NCBI RefSeq assembly: GCF_019263745.1 | Contig: NZ_CP077107.1 | Coordinates: 1,612,001 to 1,676,000 of the forward strand | Direction: 5' to 3' | DNA: 64,000 nt | From: Methanospirillum hungatei | Lineage (GTDB): Archaea; Halobacteriota; Methanomicrobia; Methanomicrobiales; Methanospirillaceae | Part shown: positions 7,722 to 15,582 of the stretch, piece by piece | Position numbering within the stretch: position 1 is the first letter of the stretch | How the letters are laid out: each line of letters begins with the position of its first letter | The notes under the pieces: generated by a model | Told to the model about the DNA's origin: nothing | Database searches by the model: none | The model's input: only the letters and a program-made list of their open reading frames with translations | Made by a program: the position numbers and the translations under genes

Positions 7722-8794
7722 AACGAATTCTGATAGCCGGGTTTTCTACCAGGCATGTTGCTCTCTCTGCACATCGGGCAGGGTATGAGGTATATGCAAT
7801 AGACCATTTTTGTGATGTGGATCTCAGGAAAATTGCAGTATCATTTCGTCAATTCGAGGAACTTTCAGAAATTCCGGGGTTCATCGAAGAGATGTGCAGA
7901 ATCTATAAAATTGATGCGATCATTCCAACATCCGGAGCAGAAACACTCCGGAACCTGCCTGTTTCGGTTCTTGGAACAGATCATGGAACCGCTGGACAGT
8001 TCCTTGACAAGGGATTTGTTCAGTCGTGGTTTGAAAGACTCAATATCCCGGTTCCACCATTAGCAAGTCCCGGGGAGTTTCCAGCCATGCTCAAACCTCT
8101 TCGTGGTTCTGGTGGTTGGCGCAATACAGTTGTGCATTCAGAAGAAGAGATTGCATCCTGGAAAGAAAATTTTCCAGATGAACCATTTCTTTTACAAAAA
8201 ATTGTGGAGGGAATTCCAGCATCGGTCTGTTGTGTAGCCGGATGTGGGAAGGCATGTGCTATTGCAGTAAATCGTCAGATCATGCGTGGTTCAGGAGCAT
8301 ATCAATTTGGTTTTTCCGGATCCCTGACTCCCTTTGATCATCCCATGCAGGAAGAGATGATCAGGTATGCTGAACTGGCTGCAGCCTTATCTGGTTGTCT
8401 TGGAGTGTTGGGTATCGATTTTATGGTCAATGATTCAGCCATATATGCAATTGAATTAAACCCAAGATTTGTTGCTACCCTTGACACAATTGAGTCAGCC
8501 ACCGGAGTAAATCTGGTACAGCTCCATATTGATGCCTGCCAGGGAATTATACCAGACAAGCGTCCGGTTCCGTTCAGATATGCAATGCGTCGGATATTGT
8601 TTGCTGACCGGCCATGTGAAGTATGCGAAGATCTCAGTCATCTGATTCCTCATGTTGCAGATATCCCGGTTCCTCCTGCTAGTTTCGAGGAAGGCGGGGC
8701 GGTTATCAGCGTGTATGGAAATGGTCCGGATGTGACCTCTGCAGAGTTAGCTCTGGATACTACTATCAGGTTAGTAACGCAATATATACGGTGA
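7694..8794 (+). CDS. ATP-grasp carboligase-like protein (COG2232 type)
   Basis: The 366-residue product has a Rossmann-like N-terminus ([21 protein letters not shown]), then an ATP-grasp fold. The lysine-bearing strand is [13 protein letters not shown] and the metal-binding end is [13 protein letters not shown], near residues 255-265. It resembles archaeal proteins annotated as ATP-dependent carboligases related to biotin carboxylase (COG2232); the substrate is unknown. The first ATG lies 28 bases inside the aTrm56 gene; later starts such as the TTG before KRILIAG are possible. It ends in a TGATG overlap with tfe. Its place between a tRNA methylase and a transcription factor suggests housekeeping work. 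Confidence 0.75.
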
Positions 8795-9315
8795 TGGTTT
8801 CCTACGAGGAAATGCTGGCCGACAAGGCTATTTTTGCATACCTTCACCGGATGATCGGGGATGAAGGAATTGAACTCATCCGGCGGTTTCCGACCGATAA
8901 GGAATACAGTGATGAAGAATTAGCCGAGGTTACCCAGATTAACCTTAACTCTGTCAGGAATACACTGTATACCTTATATGAGCACCGACTGGCGAAATAT
9001 CGCAGAATAAAAAATAACGAGACCGGATGGCTGACATATCTCTGGCAACTTGAACTTGAGAATATGTACGATTCAGTATCGAAGGATCTTGAAATCATAG
9101 TTGAAAAACTCCGGAAGCGGTTTAAATATGAGAATGAGAATGCGTTTTACTGTTGTAAAAATTGTGGGAATACAGTAACCTTCTCAGATGCAATGGACAC
9201 TCAATTTGTTTGTCAGAACTGCGAGGATCAATTGATCCATTTTGATAACGAACCGCTCGTGAATGCCCTTCAGCGTCGTATTGCACGGATTGAAGAGAAT
9301 CTCGGTCATGTGTAG
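8794..9315 (+). CDS. tfe: Transcription initiation factor E alpha subunit (TFE)
   Basis: A 173-residue homologue of eukaryotic TFIIE alpha. The first 85 residues form a winged helix (DEELAEVTQINLNSVRNTLY). A linker helix leads to a C-terminal zinc ribbon whose four cysteines appear in CKNCG and CQNCE (about residues 120-145). TFE binds the preinitiation complex with TBP, TFB and RNA polymerase and helps open the promoter. I start at ATG 8794, which overlaps the upstream stop as TGATG; a GTG at 8791 is in frame. The last eight bases overlap the HD gene. Confidence 0.95.
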   Translation: MVSYEEMLADKAIFAYLHRMIGDEGIELIRRFPTDKEYSDEELAEVTQINLNSVRNTLYTLYEHRLAKYRRIKNNETGWLTYLWQLELENMYDSVSKDLEIIVEKLRKRFKYENENAFYCCKNCGNTVTFSDAMDTQFVCQNCEDQLIHFDNEPLVNALQRRIARIEENLGHV

Positions 9316-10581: not shown

Positions 10582-10860
10582 TACTTCTTAAAAAATTTAA
10601 TAGATTAGCAAATTTGCTCTTTTAACGTCACTTATCTCCAGTTCTCACAACATCTACAACCATTGATAAAAAATTATTCTCAAAGGTGGCAGACAGAGAG
10701 AAAATGATCTGTTCATTATTATAATCCACAACATGATGGATACTATCTGAGCAAAAAATCAAATGATCACCTATTAAATCGATACAACTCATTGTAATTT
10801 TTATCAAGCTTTGCCAGAAAGCTCTCAATAAAATAAAATGAGGAAAGGAAGGGATTTACT
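10582..10860. other. AT-rich spacer between tRNA-Leu and the NCS2 permease
   Basis: An AT-rich stretch of about 280 bases. The only open frame of note is a 66-codon minus-strand frame at 10628-10828 with a TTG start and no recognisable motif, which I do not call. A short ATG-initiated frame at 10839 reads into the permease leader and is discussed with that gene. No promoter is obvious. Confidence 0.4.
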
Positions 10861-12579
10861 ATTGATAAAAAACCCTCTTATGAACTAAGTTATACAGTAG
10901 ACGAAATCCCTCCACTGGTTCCTTGCTTCATGCTCGGATTACAGCATGCACTTCTCATCGCCACGTCATTTATTTTTCCTCTGATTCTCATCAAATCTAC
11001 AGGAATGGGGAATGCTGAAGCTGCTTTTTTTATCTCTATGACCATCTTTGCCGTCGGTATCGGGACAATTCTCCTGTCTTTAAAAGGACAGTATATTGGA
11101 ACTGGGTTTTTATGCCCGTCATTTGCAGCGTTATTTTTCATCCCTCCATCTACTGCTGCATATACTCTCGGGGGTCTTGGACTCATGTCAGCGATGACTG
11201 CAGTAAGCGGTGTGTTTCAGGTTGCATTGTCAAGGATCATCAAAAGACTCCGGTTTCTGTTTCCCCCGGAAGTTACCGGATTAGTCATCATTATGGCAGG
11301 AATATCGGCCATTCCATTTTCTATTCAGAGTTTTCTGGGTATGGAAAGCCAAAAAAGTGTATTCCTGTATGAAAACCTTGTCATAGCAACAGTAACCCTC
11401 GGGGTGATTGTTATTGTCAGTATATGGGGAAAGGGTTCCATGAAACTATATCCTGCCTTTATTGGAATTCTTGCAGGATATTTTACCGCTTTTTTCCTCG
11501 GACAGATACCAATCTCACTAATATATACCTCTATTTCATTCCCTTTGGTAGCAATACCAAAGCCTGCATTTCTCTCCTGGAGTTTTGAATCCTCATTACT
11601 ATTCCCCTTCCTTATTGCAGGTCTGGCAGGAATTTTTAAAACCATTGGCAATCTGACATCATGTCAGAAGATCAATGATGCAAAATGGACCAGATCCGAT
11701 ATGCAAAATTATAGCAGAGGGACGTTAACAGACGGATTGATCAACATTCTCTGTGGATCGTTAAGTGGTCTTGGTCAAAGTACGTCATCTGGAAATATCG
11801 GTCTGTCGCTTGCGACTGGTGCAACAAGTCGGAGAATCGGATTTTTTGCCGGAGCCATCTTATTAGCAATGGCCATTTTTCCACCAGTTTCCTTTTTTTT
11901 CATGATTATGCCACTTCCGGTTATCGGAGCTGCTCTTATCTATTCCATTTGTTACATGGTAATGACAGGAATAGAAGTGATGATGACCAGGCTTATGGAT
12001 ACAAGGCGGTTTTTTACCATTGGTATATCACTTGTATTTGGCCTGGGTGCCAGCACTTTTAGCAATGTTGCTCTCCCCACAGATTACACATGGCTTGCAA
12101 CAATTCTCACATCACCCCTAACGCTCTCCACCATCATCGCACTACTCCTGACCCTAATATTTAGAATTGGCATAAAACAGACAGAGAATATTGAGATAAG
12201 AGATGATGTTCAAAACCTTGGGGACACCGTTTTTTCTTTTATCGACTCGAATGCCAGAAAATGGGGAGCGCGTCGAGATGTTGCATTAAAGGCTGGAACC
12301 GCCCTCTTTGAATTTTTAGAGAGTGGACTTGTGAATGGGGTGTTCCGTGATAATCCAAAAGTCCGTCTCTCATTTGATGAATACAACCTGGATATAATGA
12401 TTGATTACCAGGGTGAAATGGTATCAATTCCACAGACGATGCCCTCTCCAGAAGATTTCATTAATAAGCCAGATTCTTTTTTCAAGATGTCACTTGCTCT
12501 GGTAAAAATGCATTCAGATGCATTCTCCCTTTCAAAAACTGAATCCACAAACCGGGCTCATATTCACTTTGAACATTAA
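10861..12579 (+). CDS. NCS2 (xanthine/uracil-type) permease with C-terminal ATPase-like domain; unusual start
   Basis: The protein has about twelve to fourteen membrane segments of the nucleobase:cation symporter-2 family, including the N-terminal GLQHAL motif. The first ATG in this frame is at 10930, but family-like sequence (YTVDEIPPL just before GLQHAL) is encoded upstream of it. The frame is open back to a stop at 10834. The only SD-supported start is ATT at 10861, six bases after GGAAGGGA; a one-base error in the A6 run would alternatively join an ATG at 10839. After the membrane domain, the last 120 residues resemble an RsbW-like histidine-kinase ATPase fold without clear ATP-binding residues. 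The substrate is probably a purine or pyrimidine. Confidence 0.85.
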   Translation: MDKKPSYELSYTVDEIPPLVPCFMLGLQHALLIATSFIFPLILIKSTGMGNAEAAFFISMTIFAVGIGTILLSLKGQYIGTGFLCPSFAALFFIPPSTAAYTLGGLGLMSAMTAVSGVFQVALSRIIKRLRFLFPPEVTGLVIIMAGISAIPFSIQSFLGMESQKSVFLYENLVIATVTLGVIVIVSIWGKGSMKLYPAFIGILAGYFTAFFLGQIPISLIYTSISFPLVAIPKPAFLSWSFESSLLFPFLIAGLAGIFKTIGNLTSCQKINDAKWTRSDMQNYSRGTLTDGLINILCGSLSGLGQSTSSGNIGLSLATGATSRRIGFFAGAILLAMAIFPPVSFFFMIMPLPVIGAALIYSICYMVMTGIEVMMTRLMDTRRFFTIGISLVFGLGASTFSNVALPTDYTWLATILTSPLTLSTIIALLLTLIFRIGIKQTENIEIRDDVQNLGDTVFSFIDSNARKWGARRDVALKAGTALFEFLESGLVNGVFRDNPKVRLSFDEYNLDIMIDYQGEMVSIPQTMPSPEDFINKPDSFFKMSLALVKMHSDAFSLSKTESTNRAHIHFEH

Positions 12580-12586: not shown

Positions 12587-12727
12587 GATTTAAACACAAA
12601 GGCTCGATATATGTAAACCTTCTTATTGTGTAAAATGGAGATAAAACCCGGTTGTTTTCTAAAAATTATCTCCCTTTTTATCGTGCTACAATTTGTCATT
12701 ACTTCGTCCAACGATATATCCATATAG

Positions 12728-12745
12728 TATTGTACTAGTACAATA
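12728..12745. promoter_or_regulatory. Perfect 18-bp palindrome, likely PadR operator
   Basis: TATTGTACTAGTACAATA reads identically on both strands and ends four bases before the ATG of the PadR gene. PadR dimers bind palindromes over their own promoters, so an autoregulatory operator controlling the whole cassette is a direct inference. The surrounding TATAGTATTG could serve as the TATA element. Confidence 0.7.
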
Positions 12746-12749
12746 TTGT

Positions 12750-13310
12750 ATGAGTTCGATCTCGAACATGGAGACAGCCCTTCTGGGGCTTCTCTCTGAA
12801 AGACCGATGTATCCGTATGAGATTGAAAAGAACGTATGGGAACATGACATGCGGTACTGGACCGAGATCTCACTCTCATCCATCTACAAGGTTCTGGAAA
12901 AACTCGAGAAGAAACTGCTCGTTGACGTAAACCTGACCGTCACCGATACCAACAAGGTCAAGAAGATCTACTCCATCACCGAGAAAGGAAAAAAGGAACT
13001 CAAAGAGAGGATCGTTGAGATCATGTCTGAACTGGAGATCAGCATCCACCAGATTGATCTCGCCCTTGCAAATCTGCACCTTCTGACCACAGAAGAGGTG
13101 AACGAAGTCCTTGGCAAATACCTGAAGTCCATTGATGAGCGTATCACCTGTTACAAGGAATTGGAACAGTATCTTCAGGATCATGAATGTGCGGTGGGGA
13201 ACCTTGCTTTGTCAAAGAGGAGGCAGTTTCTGATGAAGGCTGAGCGGGAATGGGTTATCAGTTTCCTTGATGAATTTAATGCACATGCAGGAGGGGAAGG
13301 ACATGAGTGA
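12750..13310 (+). CDS. PadR-family transcriptional regulator
   Basis: A 186-residue protein. The N-terminal PadR winged helix is clear in ETALLGLLSERPMYPYEIEK, then SLSSIYKVLEKLEKKLLV, then the wing with KKIYSITEKGKKEL. A long helical C-terminal half (residues 95-180) would form the dimer interface. Such regulators sense drugs or aromatic compounds and release their operators. I start at ATG 12750 rather than the longer frame from 12693 because the palindromic operator lies just upstream; ATG 12768 is a second option. The last eight bases overlap the UvrA-like gene, so the cassette is probably one operon. Confidence 0.88.
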   Translation: MSSISNMETALLGLLSERPMYPYEIEKNVWEHDMRYWTEISLSSIYKVLEKLEKKLLVDVNLTVTDTNKVKKIYSITEKGKKELKERIVEIMSELEISIHQIDLALANLHLLTTEEVNEVLGKYLKSIDERITCYKELEQYLQDHECAVGNLALSKRRQFLMKAEREWVISFLDEFNAHAGGEGHE

Positions 13311-15582
13311 GTCGATAGAACTCTCCGGTGTAAGAGTCCATAACCTGAAGAATGTCTCGGTTTCAATTCCAAAGAACCAGATTGTGGTCTTTACCGGTGT
13401 GTCCGGAAGTGGAAAATCCTCTCTTGTGTTTGATACCATCGGCCTTGAGGCACGGCGGCAGCTTATTGAGACGTTCAGCACTTTTGAACGCTCCATGCTC
13501 CCAAAGATTACCCGGCCTGACGTAGATGAGATTGTGAACCTCTCGCCAGTTATCGTCATAGATCAGAAAAGACCTGGTCAGACGCTCCGGTCCACTGTCG
13601 GGACCATGACTGAACTCTATACATACCTTCGTCTCCTCTACTCCCGGTGTGGAGATCCGTTCATCGGGGGATCGAATCTCTTCTCGTTCAACAATGCGGA
13701 AGGAATGTGCCCGGAATGCAGCGGTCTTGGACAACTGATGGTCATCGATGAGAATAAGGTGTTTGATTTCTCAAAAAGCGTTGCAGAGGGAGCCGTTCTC
13801 CATCCCCAGTACAAGAAAGGCGGGTATTACTGGTCATCTCTGATGAAATCAGAACTCTTTGATCCTCACTGTCCGGTGGGAGAACTCTCCGAAAAGGAAC
13901 GGTATAACCTGATGCATCATCCCCAGACTACTATCCTGGGAGAGCGGTTTGGGGAGAAGTACCAGGCACAATATGAAGGTGTGCTGAGCAGACTGAAAAA
14001 GACCTATATCAACAAGGAGGAGAATTCTGATGCATATACCCAGTTCTTCAGGTACGAAACCTGTCACTCCTGTCATGGATCACGGTTGAATGAACAGGCA
14101 CGTACGGTCATAGTTGCGGGAAGAACAATTCCTGACCTTATCCACCTGGAGATGCCTGCTCTCCTCGCCTGGCTTGATACCCTTGATCATCCCCATGCAA
14201 CACCGATTGCCCGGAAGATGGGACTTATCATCCAGTATCTGATAGATATCGGAGTCGGATACCTTACCCTTCATCGCCCGGTTGCAACCCTCTCCGGTGG
14301 TGAGGCACAGCGGGTTAAGATTGCTAAACAACTTGACTGCACATTGGTAAACCTTGTTTATATCCTTGATGAGCCAAGTATCGGACTTCATCCCCGTGAT
14401 ATCCGGAATCTGACCCGGATTTTAACCGAACTTCGGGACCGGAAGAATACGATCCTTGTCGTGGAGCATGACCCCGAGGTGATCCTCTCCTCTGACCACC
14501 TGGTCGATATCGGACCCGGAGCAGGAATACACGGGGGTCAGATTACGTATAGCGGACCTGTCAGCGGGATTCATACGTCAGGAACCAAAACGGCGGATTA
14601 CCTAAACCATCGGGCTGAAATGGCATCCGTTAGAAGGCAGGCAAAAGGTGAATTCAGAATCGAGAATGCAATCCTTCACAACCTGAAAAATGTCTCGATC
14701 TCCATCCCGAAAGGGGTTCTGGTCTGTGTGACCGGGGTTGCCGGGAGTGGGAAGAGTTCTCTTATTCACGGAGTATTCTGCAAGGAGCACACTGATGCAG
14801 TCGTCATTGATCAGTCAGCAATCGGACGGAGTTCACGGTCAAATCCGGTGACATACCTTGGAATCTTTGACCTTATCAGAAAGGAGTTTGCACGGGCAAC
14901 CGGCACCGAACCATCCCTCTTTAGCTTCAATTCGAAAGGGGCGTGCCCGAAATGCAAGGGGCTTGGTATCCTTAAGATGGATATGCATTTCCTTGATGAT
15001 GTCGCGATGGTCTGTGATGAGTGTAACGGGCTTCGGTATCGTCCTGATGTGCTTGCTCTCCGTTATAAGGGAAAAACAATATCAGATATTCTGAACGAAA
15101 CCGTAGGGGAAGCAATTGATTTCTTTGAAACACCGGAGATCAGGAGAAAATTAGAGGTCCTTAAACTGGTTGGTCTTGATTATCTCAGGCTGGGTCAGTC
15201 ACTTAGTTCGCTCTCCGGTGGCGAGGCACAGCGGTTAAAACTTGCAACCGAGCTCCATAAGAAGGGTAATATCTACGTGATGGATGAACCCACAACCGGG
15301 CTTCATATGGCTGATACCGAGCGGCTGCTTGGGATCATTCACGGACTTGTTGATGCCGGGAATTCGGTCATCGTGATAGAACATAACCTGGATGTGATCT
15401 GCCAGGCTGACTATATCATCGATATGGGTCCGGAAGGAGGAAGCAGCGGAGGAGAGATCGTCGCTACCGGCACTCCGGAAGAGATCATGGCGAATACAGC
15501 ATCGGTAACCGGACGGTTCCTGAGCGAGATTTTTGGCACGAATCAGGTGCAGAATTGCAGGATAAAGGTGGCTCATGAGTAA
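13303..15582 (+). CDS. Short UvrA-like ABC ATPase (drug-resistance type)
   Basis: The 759-residue protein has two UvrA-style ABC modules. Walker A motifs are GVSGSGKSS (about residue 32) and GVAGSGKSS (about 480). Signatures are LSGGEAQRVK and LSGGEAQRLK, with Walker B LDEPSIGLHP and MDEPTTGLHM. Zinc-finger cysteines appear in CPECSGLG, CHSCHGS and CPKCKGLG/CDECNG. Canonical UvrA is about 940 residues; this one lacks the space for a UvrB-binding domain, as in UvrA2/DrrC-like proteins that protect against DNA-binding drugs. It lies between a PadR regulator and an ABC exporter, which supports drug resistance over general repair. It overlaps both neighbours by eight bases. Confidence 0.88.
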   Translation: MSESIELSGVRVHNLKNVSVSIPKNQIVVFTGVSGSGKSSLVFDTIGLEARRQLIETFSTFERSMLPKITRPDVDEIVNLSPVIVIDQKRPGQTLRSTVGTMTELYTYLRLLYSRCGDPFIGGSNLFSFNNAEGMCPECSGLGQLMVIDENKVFDFSKSVAEGAVLHPQYKKGGYYWSSLMKSELFDPHCPVGELSEKERYNLMHHPQTTILGERFGEKYQAQYEGVLSRLKKTYINKEENSDAYTQFFRYETCHSCHGSRLNEQARTVIVAGRTIPDLIHLEMPALLAWLDTLDHPHATPIARKMGLIIQYLIDIGVGYLTLHRPVATLSGGEAQRVKIAKQLDCTLVNLVYILDEPSIGLHPRDIRNLTRILTELRDRKNTILVVEHDPEVILSSDHLVDIGPGAGIHGGQITYSGPVSGIHTSGTKTADYLNHRAEMASVRRQAKGEFRIENAILHNLKNVSISIPKGVLVCVTGVAGSGKSSLIHGVFCKEHTDAVVIDQSAIGRSSRSNPVTYLGIFDLIRKEFARATGTEPSLFSFNSKGACPKCKGLGILKMDMHFLDDVAMVCDECNGLRYRPDVLALRYKGKTISDILNETVGEAIDFFETPEIRRKLEVLKLVGLDYLRLGQSLSSLSGGEAQRLKLATELHKKGNIYVMDEPTTGLHMADTERLLGIIHGLVDAGNSVIVIEHNLDVICQADYIIDMGPEGGSSGGEIVATGTPEEIMANTASVTGRFLSEIFGTNQVQNCRIKVAHE

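Follow-up and report, generated by a model that had tools for sequence, protein, structure and literature searches.

A permease gene of the NCS2 type, in the 64,000-nucleotide stretch of DNA analysed here (the window; positions 1,612,001-1,676,000 of a single contig of genome G000), has no canonical start codon at the place where one is expected. Judging from a comparison with two orthologues of the genus, it is highly likely that translation starts at an AUU codon at 10861 by way of a ribosome-binding block and initiator Met-tRNA, and that this AUU replaced an ancestral canonical start; the low rate of synthesis it would give may be tolerated or useful. The features concerned are as follows.

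10861..12579, forward strand: NCS2-type permease gene, 572 codons plus stop, identified by its PF00860 match and PDB matches
10834..10836, forward strand: TAA, a stop codon in the permease frame ahead of the gene
10847..10855, forward strand: ribosome-binding block GGAAGGGAT, identified by its conservation in three species and its 16S duplex
10861..10863, forward strand: ATT (AUU), the proposed start codon
10864..10929, forward strand: codons 2-23, translated and conserved by pS/pN despite lying upstream of the first ATG
10930..10932, forward strand: ATG (codon 24), the first in-frame canonical codon

Between the stop codon and codon 24 there is no in-frame ATG, GTG or TTG. An earlier note on this DNA had pointed to the in-frame stop at 10834 and to a Shine-Dalgarno-like GGAAGGGA six bases upstream of the ATT, and both are where it had placed them (TAA at 10834-10836; GGAAGGGA at 10847-10854). 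It had also described an ATG in another frame and a run of six A residues in which a single indel could join the two frames. Both exist, each one base away from the position given, the ATG lying at 10838-10840 rather than 10839 and the run at 10867-10872 rather than 10866-10871.

The permease matches PF00860 (Xan_ur_permease) with 172.7 bits against a Pfam gathering score of 27, and passes the broader NCBIfam model NF037981 (56.7 against a cut-off of 40). It does not reach the NCBIfam cut-offs of TIGR00801 (ncs2; 159.5 of 291.8 bits) or TIGR03173 (pbuX; 194.9 of 414.15 bits), so that the assignment of a substrate is not justified. An AlphaFold2 model was obtained with a mean pLDDT of 81.9, and the best PDB matches of the predicted fold were SVCT1, UapA and UraA. 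The protein is thus alike to these NCS2/NAT permeases in sequence and predicted fold, but carries an additional C-terminal domain at about residues 440-572 (12160-12579). This domain matches no Pfam family at E 0.1; it is modelled confidently, in the order beta-alpha-alpha-beta-beta-alpha-alpha-beta-beta, and is also present in the aligned homologues. The 16S rRNA of G000 is archaeal (RF01959, 1548 bits). Elsewhere in the window a TFIIE-alpha homologue lies at 8791-9315, and beyond the 3' end of the permease gene, at 12693-15582, a PadR-type regulator lies beside a short UvrA-like ABC protein that carries a UvrA DNA-binding match.

The genus was searched at E <= 1e-90 in 12 genomes including the window's own, seven of them at least 90% complete, and an orthologue (at least 73% identity) was found in three of the 12: the window gene, L002 in G007 (74% identity) and L003 in G003 (73%). 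Among 392 genomes drawn from the phylum, the only matches besides the window's own were at or below 43% identity. Of two further contig scans, one found nothing and the other gave two loci in Elusimicrobia assemblies (L147 and L148), close relatives of this archaeal permease family that are 40-41% identical over almost the full length; a scan of viral sequences found none. Interrupted partial second copies of the 3' part of the permease were observed at G007:C1:464101-464791 and G003:C2:635448-636145, about 5-11 kb from the intact gene. Since L002 and L003 are themselves 90.75% identical, the three genes amount to only two independent, well-separated lineages, which weighs against the AUU reading.

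All three orthologues have ATT at the same codon, the homologous start position, and no usable in-frame ATG, GTG or TTG at the N-terminus, as the earlier note's proposal of an AUU start would have it. The frames read GGA TTT ACT ATT GAT AAA AAA CCC in the window, TAG ATC ATT GCC AAG AAA CCG in L002 and GGA TTC ATC ATT GTC CAG AAA CCA in L003. In L002 the in-frame TAG stands two codons upstream of the ATT, with nothing but ATC and ATT between it and the conserved stretch, and a canonical codon is absent from the first 25 codons; in L003 the first canonical codon is a TTG at codon 9, within the conserved YELTY. Gene finders that accept only ATG, GTG and TTG would truncate these proteins at different wrong sites in each species. 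A single base would alter this picture, and broken partial copies of the permease lie nearby in G003 and G007, as might be expected of a sequencing error or a decaying gene; we regard either as extremely improbable, as three separate genomes agree and each gene is open to its end with constrained codons. With the ATT retained in two related species, it appears to be an enduring trait of the gene, not an error of sequencing.

Codons 2-23 were compared with the rest of the gene using Nei-Gojobori counts. For the window and L002, pS was 0.87 and pN 0.11 in this stretch (rest of gene 0.71 and 0.16); for the window and L003 the values were 0.89 and 0.15 (0.67 and 0.15), and for L002 and L003 0.57 and 0.06 (0.46 and 0.05). 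The low pN against a high pS shows that the stretch, though short, is protein-coding in all three genes. As purifying selection acts on the 22 codons that separate the ATT from ATG 10930, the start is truly absent from its expected place, and the claim that conserved N-terminal residues are encoded upstream of the first ATG is borne out in three species. Codons 2-23, including the DE-PP stretch, align with the beginning of E. coli UraA. Synonymous sites are near saturation between the window and the two orthologues (dS 2.2 and 1.7). Of the ATT isoleucine codons of the window that are matched to isoleucine, 7 of 22 are ATT in L002 and 12 of 21 in L003, the start included in both counts; retention of T at the third base of the start codon is in itself uninformative.

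These results bear on a start at ATG 10930, which would give a protein 23 residues shorter. This codon is the first canonical one in frame and precedes the first long membrane helices that are predicted for the permease. However, it is unlikely to be the start because the methionine preceding GLQHAL in the window is replaced by leucine in both orthologues (CFLLGLQH); the selection on the 22 codons upstream of it and the reach of the UraA alignment into the DE-PP stretch stand against it too. Of the more remote homologues, 22 have a 5' end that can be read, and all of these start near the position of the ATT, 21 with ATG and one (L021) with GTG. Relative to the ATT residue, their starts fall at positions -1 to 4, in 13 cases exactly at position 1; the positions were obtained by extending the tblastn match without gaps, and some of the homologues have more candidate starts upstream. 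This count covers 27 of 42 loci, 15 weaker ones (L011-L018 and L023-L029; E 2e-17 or worse) lying outside it; the 24 that are not orthologues were reduced to 22 by leaving out L042 (5' end missing) and L022 (whose best match is the L009 gene). In L147 and L148, where the match starts at residue 3, an ATG lies three and five codons upstream of it. Homologues that begin at the methionine close to GLQHAL and lack the upstream residues, the pattern that the earlier note had named as speaking against its own proposal, were not found. Initiation at ATG 10930 is scarcely credible.

A maximum-likelihood tree of 27 proteins placed the ATT genes in one clade with support of 100/100. L004, a member of the same family with ATG at position 1, was sister to this clade (99/99), although it forms a long branch and the tree tool warns that its placement may be false.

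A block of the form GGMAGGGAT was found at the same distance from the ATT in all three orthologues. Eight of its nine columns are identical, compared with two of 26 in the preceding bases and one of five in the spacer. With the last 12 bases of the 16S rRNA, RNAduplex gave -10.1 kcal/mol for the window, -8.2 for L002 and -12.1 for L003. The quartiles were -9.5, -6.8 and -5.2 kcal/mol for 57 control starts and -6.9, -4.8 and -3.5 for 1000 random 22-mers; the best-scoring candidate of each control was taken, which favours the controls, and 57 of 61 controls gave one. The block of L002 is only moderately strong. A ribosome-binding site therefore stands at a working distance from the AUU.

Another nearby codon could be the start, either the ATC that directly precedes the ATT in L002 and L003, or a TTG that overlaps the ATT out of frame (ATTG in all three orthologues) and is followed by a slip. 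The ATC is a point against the AUU itself, but the window has ACT in its place; the TTG frame stops after eight codons, and L002 and L003 have no slippery heptamer in it. We consider a start at either of these codons improbable.

Initiation at AUU was also weighed against a programmed -1 frameshift, in which translation would start at ATG 10838 or TTG 10862 and slip into the permease frame at A-AAA-AAC (10867-10873). This is a classic X-XXY-YYZ heptamer in the correct frame, a -1 slip on it yields CCC TCT TAT GAA, and L002 too has an upstream ATG in the slip frame. There is an archaeal precedent in fucA1, for which -1 frameshifting on A-AAA-AAT has been described (PMC8211752). Neither L002 nor L003, however, has any slippery heptamer in that frame, and in L003 the overlapping TTG is the first ATG, GTG or TTG that the frame contains. 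For a stimulatory structure downstream the picture is mixed, the window folding well (z -2.5) but none of 19 consensus pairs covarying. The frameshift, and with it the earlier suggestion of an indel in the run of A residues, is in our view very improbable. The idea that an overlapping leader ORF, starting at an ATG of its own, is conserved was rejected as well, as the window and L002 have one and L003 does not.

Folding of the window at 10821-10920 gave a hairpin in which the binding block is paired with the IPP codons (-21 kcal/mol, z -2.5); the z-scores of the start regions of L002 and L003 were -1.3 and -1.6. None of the 19 pairs of the consensus hairpin covaries. Against 400 synonymous shuffles per gene, the fold-energy fractions of L002 (0.435) and L003 (0.472) were ordinary and that of the window (0.055) borderline, while the pairing of the window's start region gave a fraction of 0.045 in the same test. 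A hairpin masking the binding site was therefore rejected, given the lack of covariation and the folds of L002 and L003, which are no better than those of synonymous shuffles.

In order to judge how unusual this start is, two samples of the genome were compared, from which shadow frames (frames overlapping a better match) were removed ahead of counting. In the first, which set 0.4 Mb of G000 beside 1.2 Mb of G007, 85 pairs were reduced to 61, and in 12 of these the alignment starts before the first canonical codon of either gene. In the 11 of these other than the permease, inspected by eye, the canonical codons lie within a few residues of each other or, in one case, the aligned ends are poorly conserved. 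The second sample, 0.8 Mb of G000 against sampled sequence of G007 and G003, was reduced from 226 to 167 frames, of which 139 have an aligned canonical start. Among the remaining 28, again judged by eye, only the permease is clearly conserved as protein ahead of its first canonical codon in the two species alike. The other 27 look like stretch-end cuts, starts before the local alignment, overlaps with an upstream gene, shadow frames and two single-species cases (L168 in G000 and L102 in G003). The comparison between G007 and G003 was not used as a control, as their flanks align as well as their genes. Further AUU starts may exist elsewhere in G000, this being a sample assessed partly by eye.

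The two single-species cases are separate observations. L168 (734-1690, minus strand; G000:C1:580734-581690), whose product we take to be lipid-kinase-like, has AGG in G000 where ATG opens the gene in three orthologues from the genus, and no ATG, GTG or TTG before a GTG 17 residues into the match; start loss, decay or sequencing error may each account for this one-species case. L102 (5444-7111, plus strand) of G003 has a signal-peptide-like N-terminus, STTKRAALLLLICVVFF, right after an in-frame TAA, and the stretch shown has no canonical start.

Based on these comparisons, we propose that the binding block just upstream of the AUU would position the small subunit and that initiator Met-tRNA would start on the AUU, so that the protein would begin Met-Asp-Lys-Lys-Pro. 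Initiation at this codon is probably of low efficiency. The ancestral start would have been canonical, as it is in most relatives (ATG), and would have changed to AUU on the branch leading to the three orthologues, without reverting in any of them, though one substitution suffices. The simplest reason may be that the poor start holds synthesis at a low rate, and that a transporter tolerates this or benefits from it; the exact initiation codon, the insertion of methionine, the low output and its usefulness are what we infer. Binns and Masters, by the title of their 2002 paper, reportedly traced the low output of pcnB to an inefficient start. Retention of AUU argues against strong selection for AUG and is no proof of selection for AUU. 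It is possible, though doubtful, that selection maintains the AUU because it acts as a control element, such that the stringency of aIF1 and aIF2 sets or senses permease output in an archaeal counterpart of infC and pcnB; to our knowledge archaea have no IF3.

Some observations weigh against the AUU start. The first eight residues of the model are of low confidence (pLDDT below 50), and aIF1, reported to oppose non-AUG starts, is present: a SUI1-domain gene was found in all four genomes searched. The presence of aIF1 also means that its loss is not the cause of the AUU start, an explanation that was rejected. The relative of this factor in S. solfataricus has been described as destabilising the initiation complex on non-AUG mRNA (PMC6237735).

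Switches from AUG to AUU are extremely rare. In a reconstruction based on 36 triplets of related genomes from bacteria and archaea, the portion of the paper concerned gives one AUG to AUU switch among 61,358 reconstructed AUG starts and one GUG to AUU switch among 5,080 GUG starts (PMC5622118). For unannotated small ORFs detected by Ribo-seq in Methanosarcina mazei, the passages concerned list ATG (56%), TTG and GTG (about 20% each) and CTG (5%) and report no ATT start (PMC11456600). The corresponding part of a review of archaeal initiation gives AUG, GUG and UUG as starts and does not mention 'AUU' (PMC7531240). An AUU start in a clade with near-saturated synonymous sites would be a natural test of how far the archaeal initiation machinery, which is eukaryote-like, tolerates near-cognate codons, and the same clade would also test whether weak starts are retained to restrain expression.

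Three known systems invite comparison. The fucA1 gene of Sulfolobus (Saccharolobus) solfataricus, as excerpted, has A-AAA-AAT where the window has A-AAA-AAC, both beside a startless frame (PMC8211752), but in the permease the slippery site occurs in only one of three orthologues. The genes infC (IF3) and pcnB, which in the source passage are the sole E. coli genes said to start at AUU (PMC9410913), share their start codon with the permease; they are, however, bacterial and experimentally proven, with feedback of IF3 on infC, whereas the permease is an archaeal transporter known by sequence comparison alone. Among the matches listed from the open-licence PMC literature, we recognised no archaeal AUU start other than that of the tubulin AtubA, in a kariarchaeal metagenome-assembled genome, where an ATT start was inferred in 2026 from alignment, from an N-terminus that would otherwise be missing and from a ribosome-binding site in a suitable position, according to the extract concerned (PMC13394414). 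The two cases are alike in being archaeal ATT starts deduced from sequence, and differ in gene, in lineage and in that AtubA comes from one assembled genome while the ATT of the permease is common to three. The permease would thus be the second archaeal AUU start found, and the first found to be common to several species.
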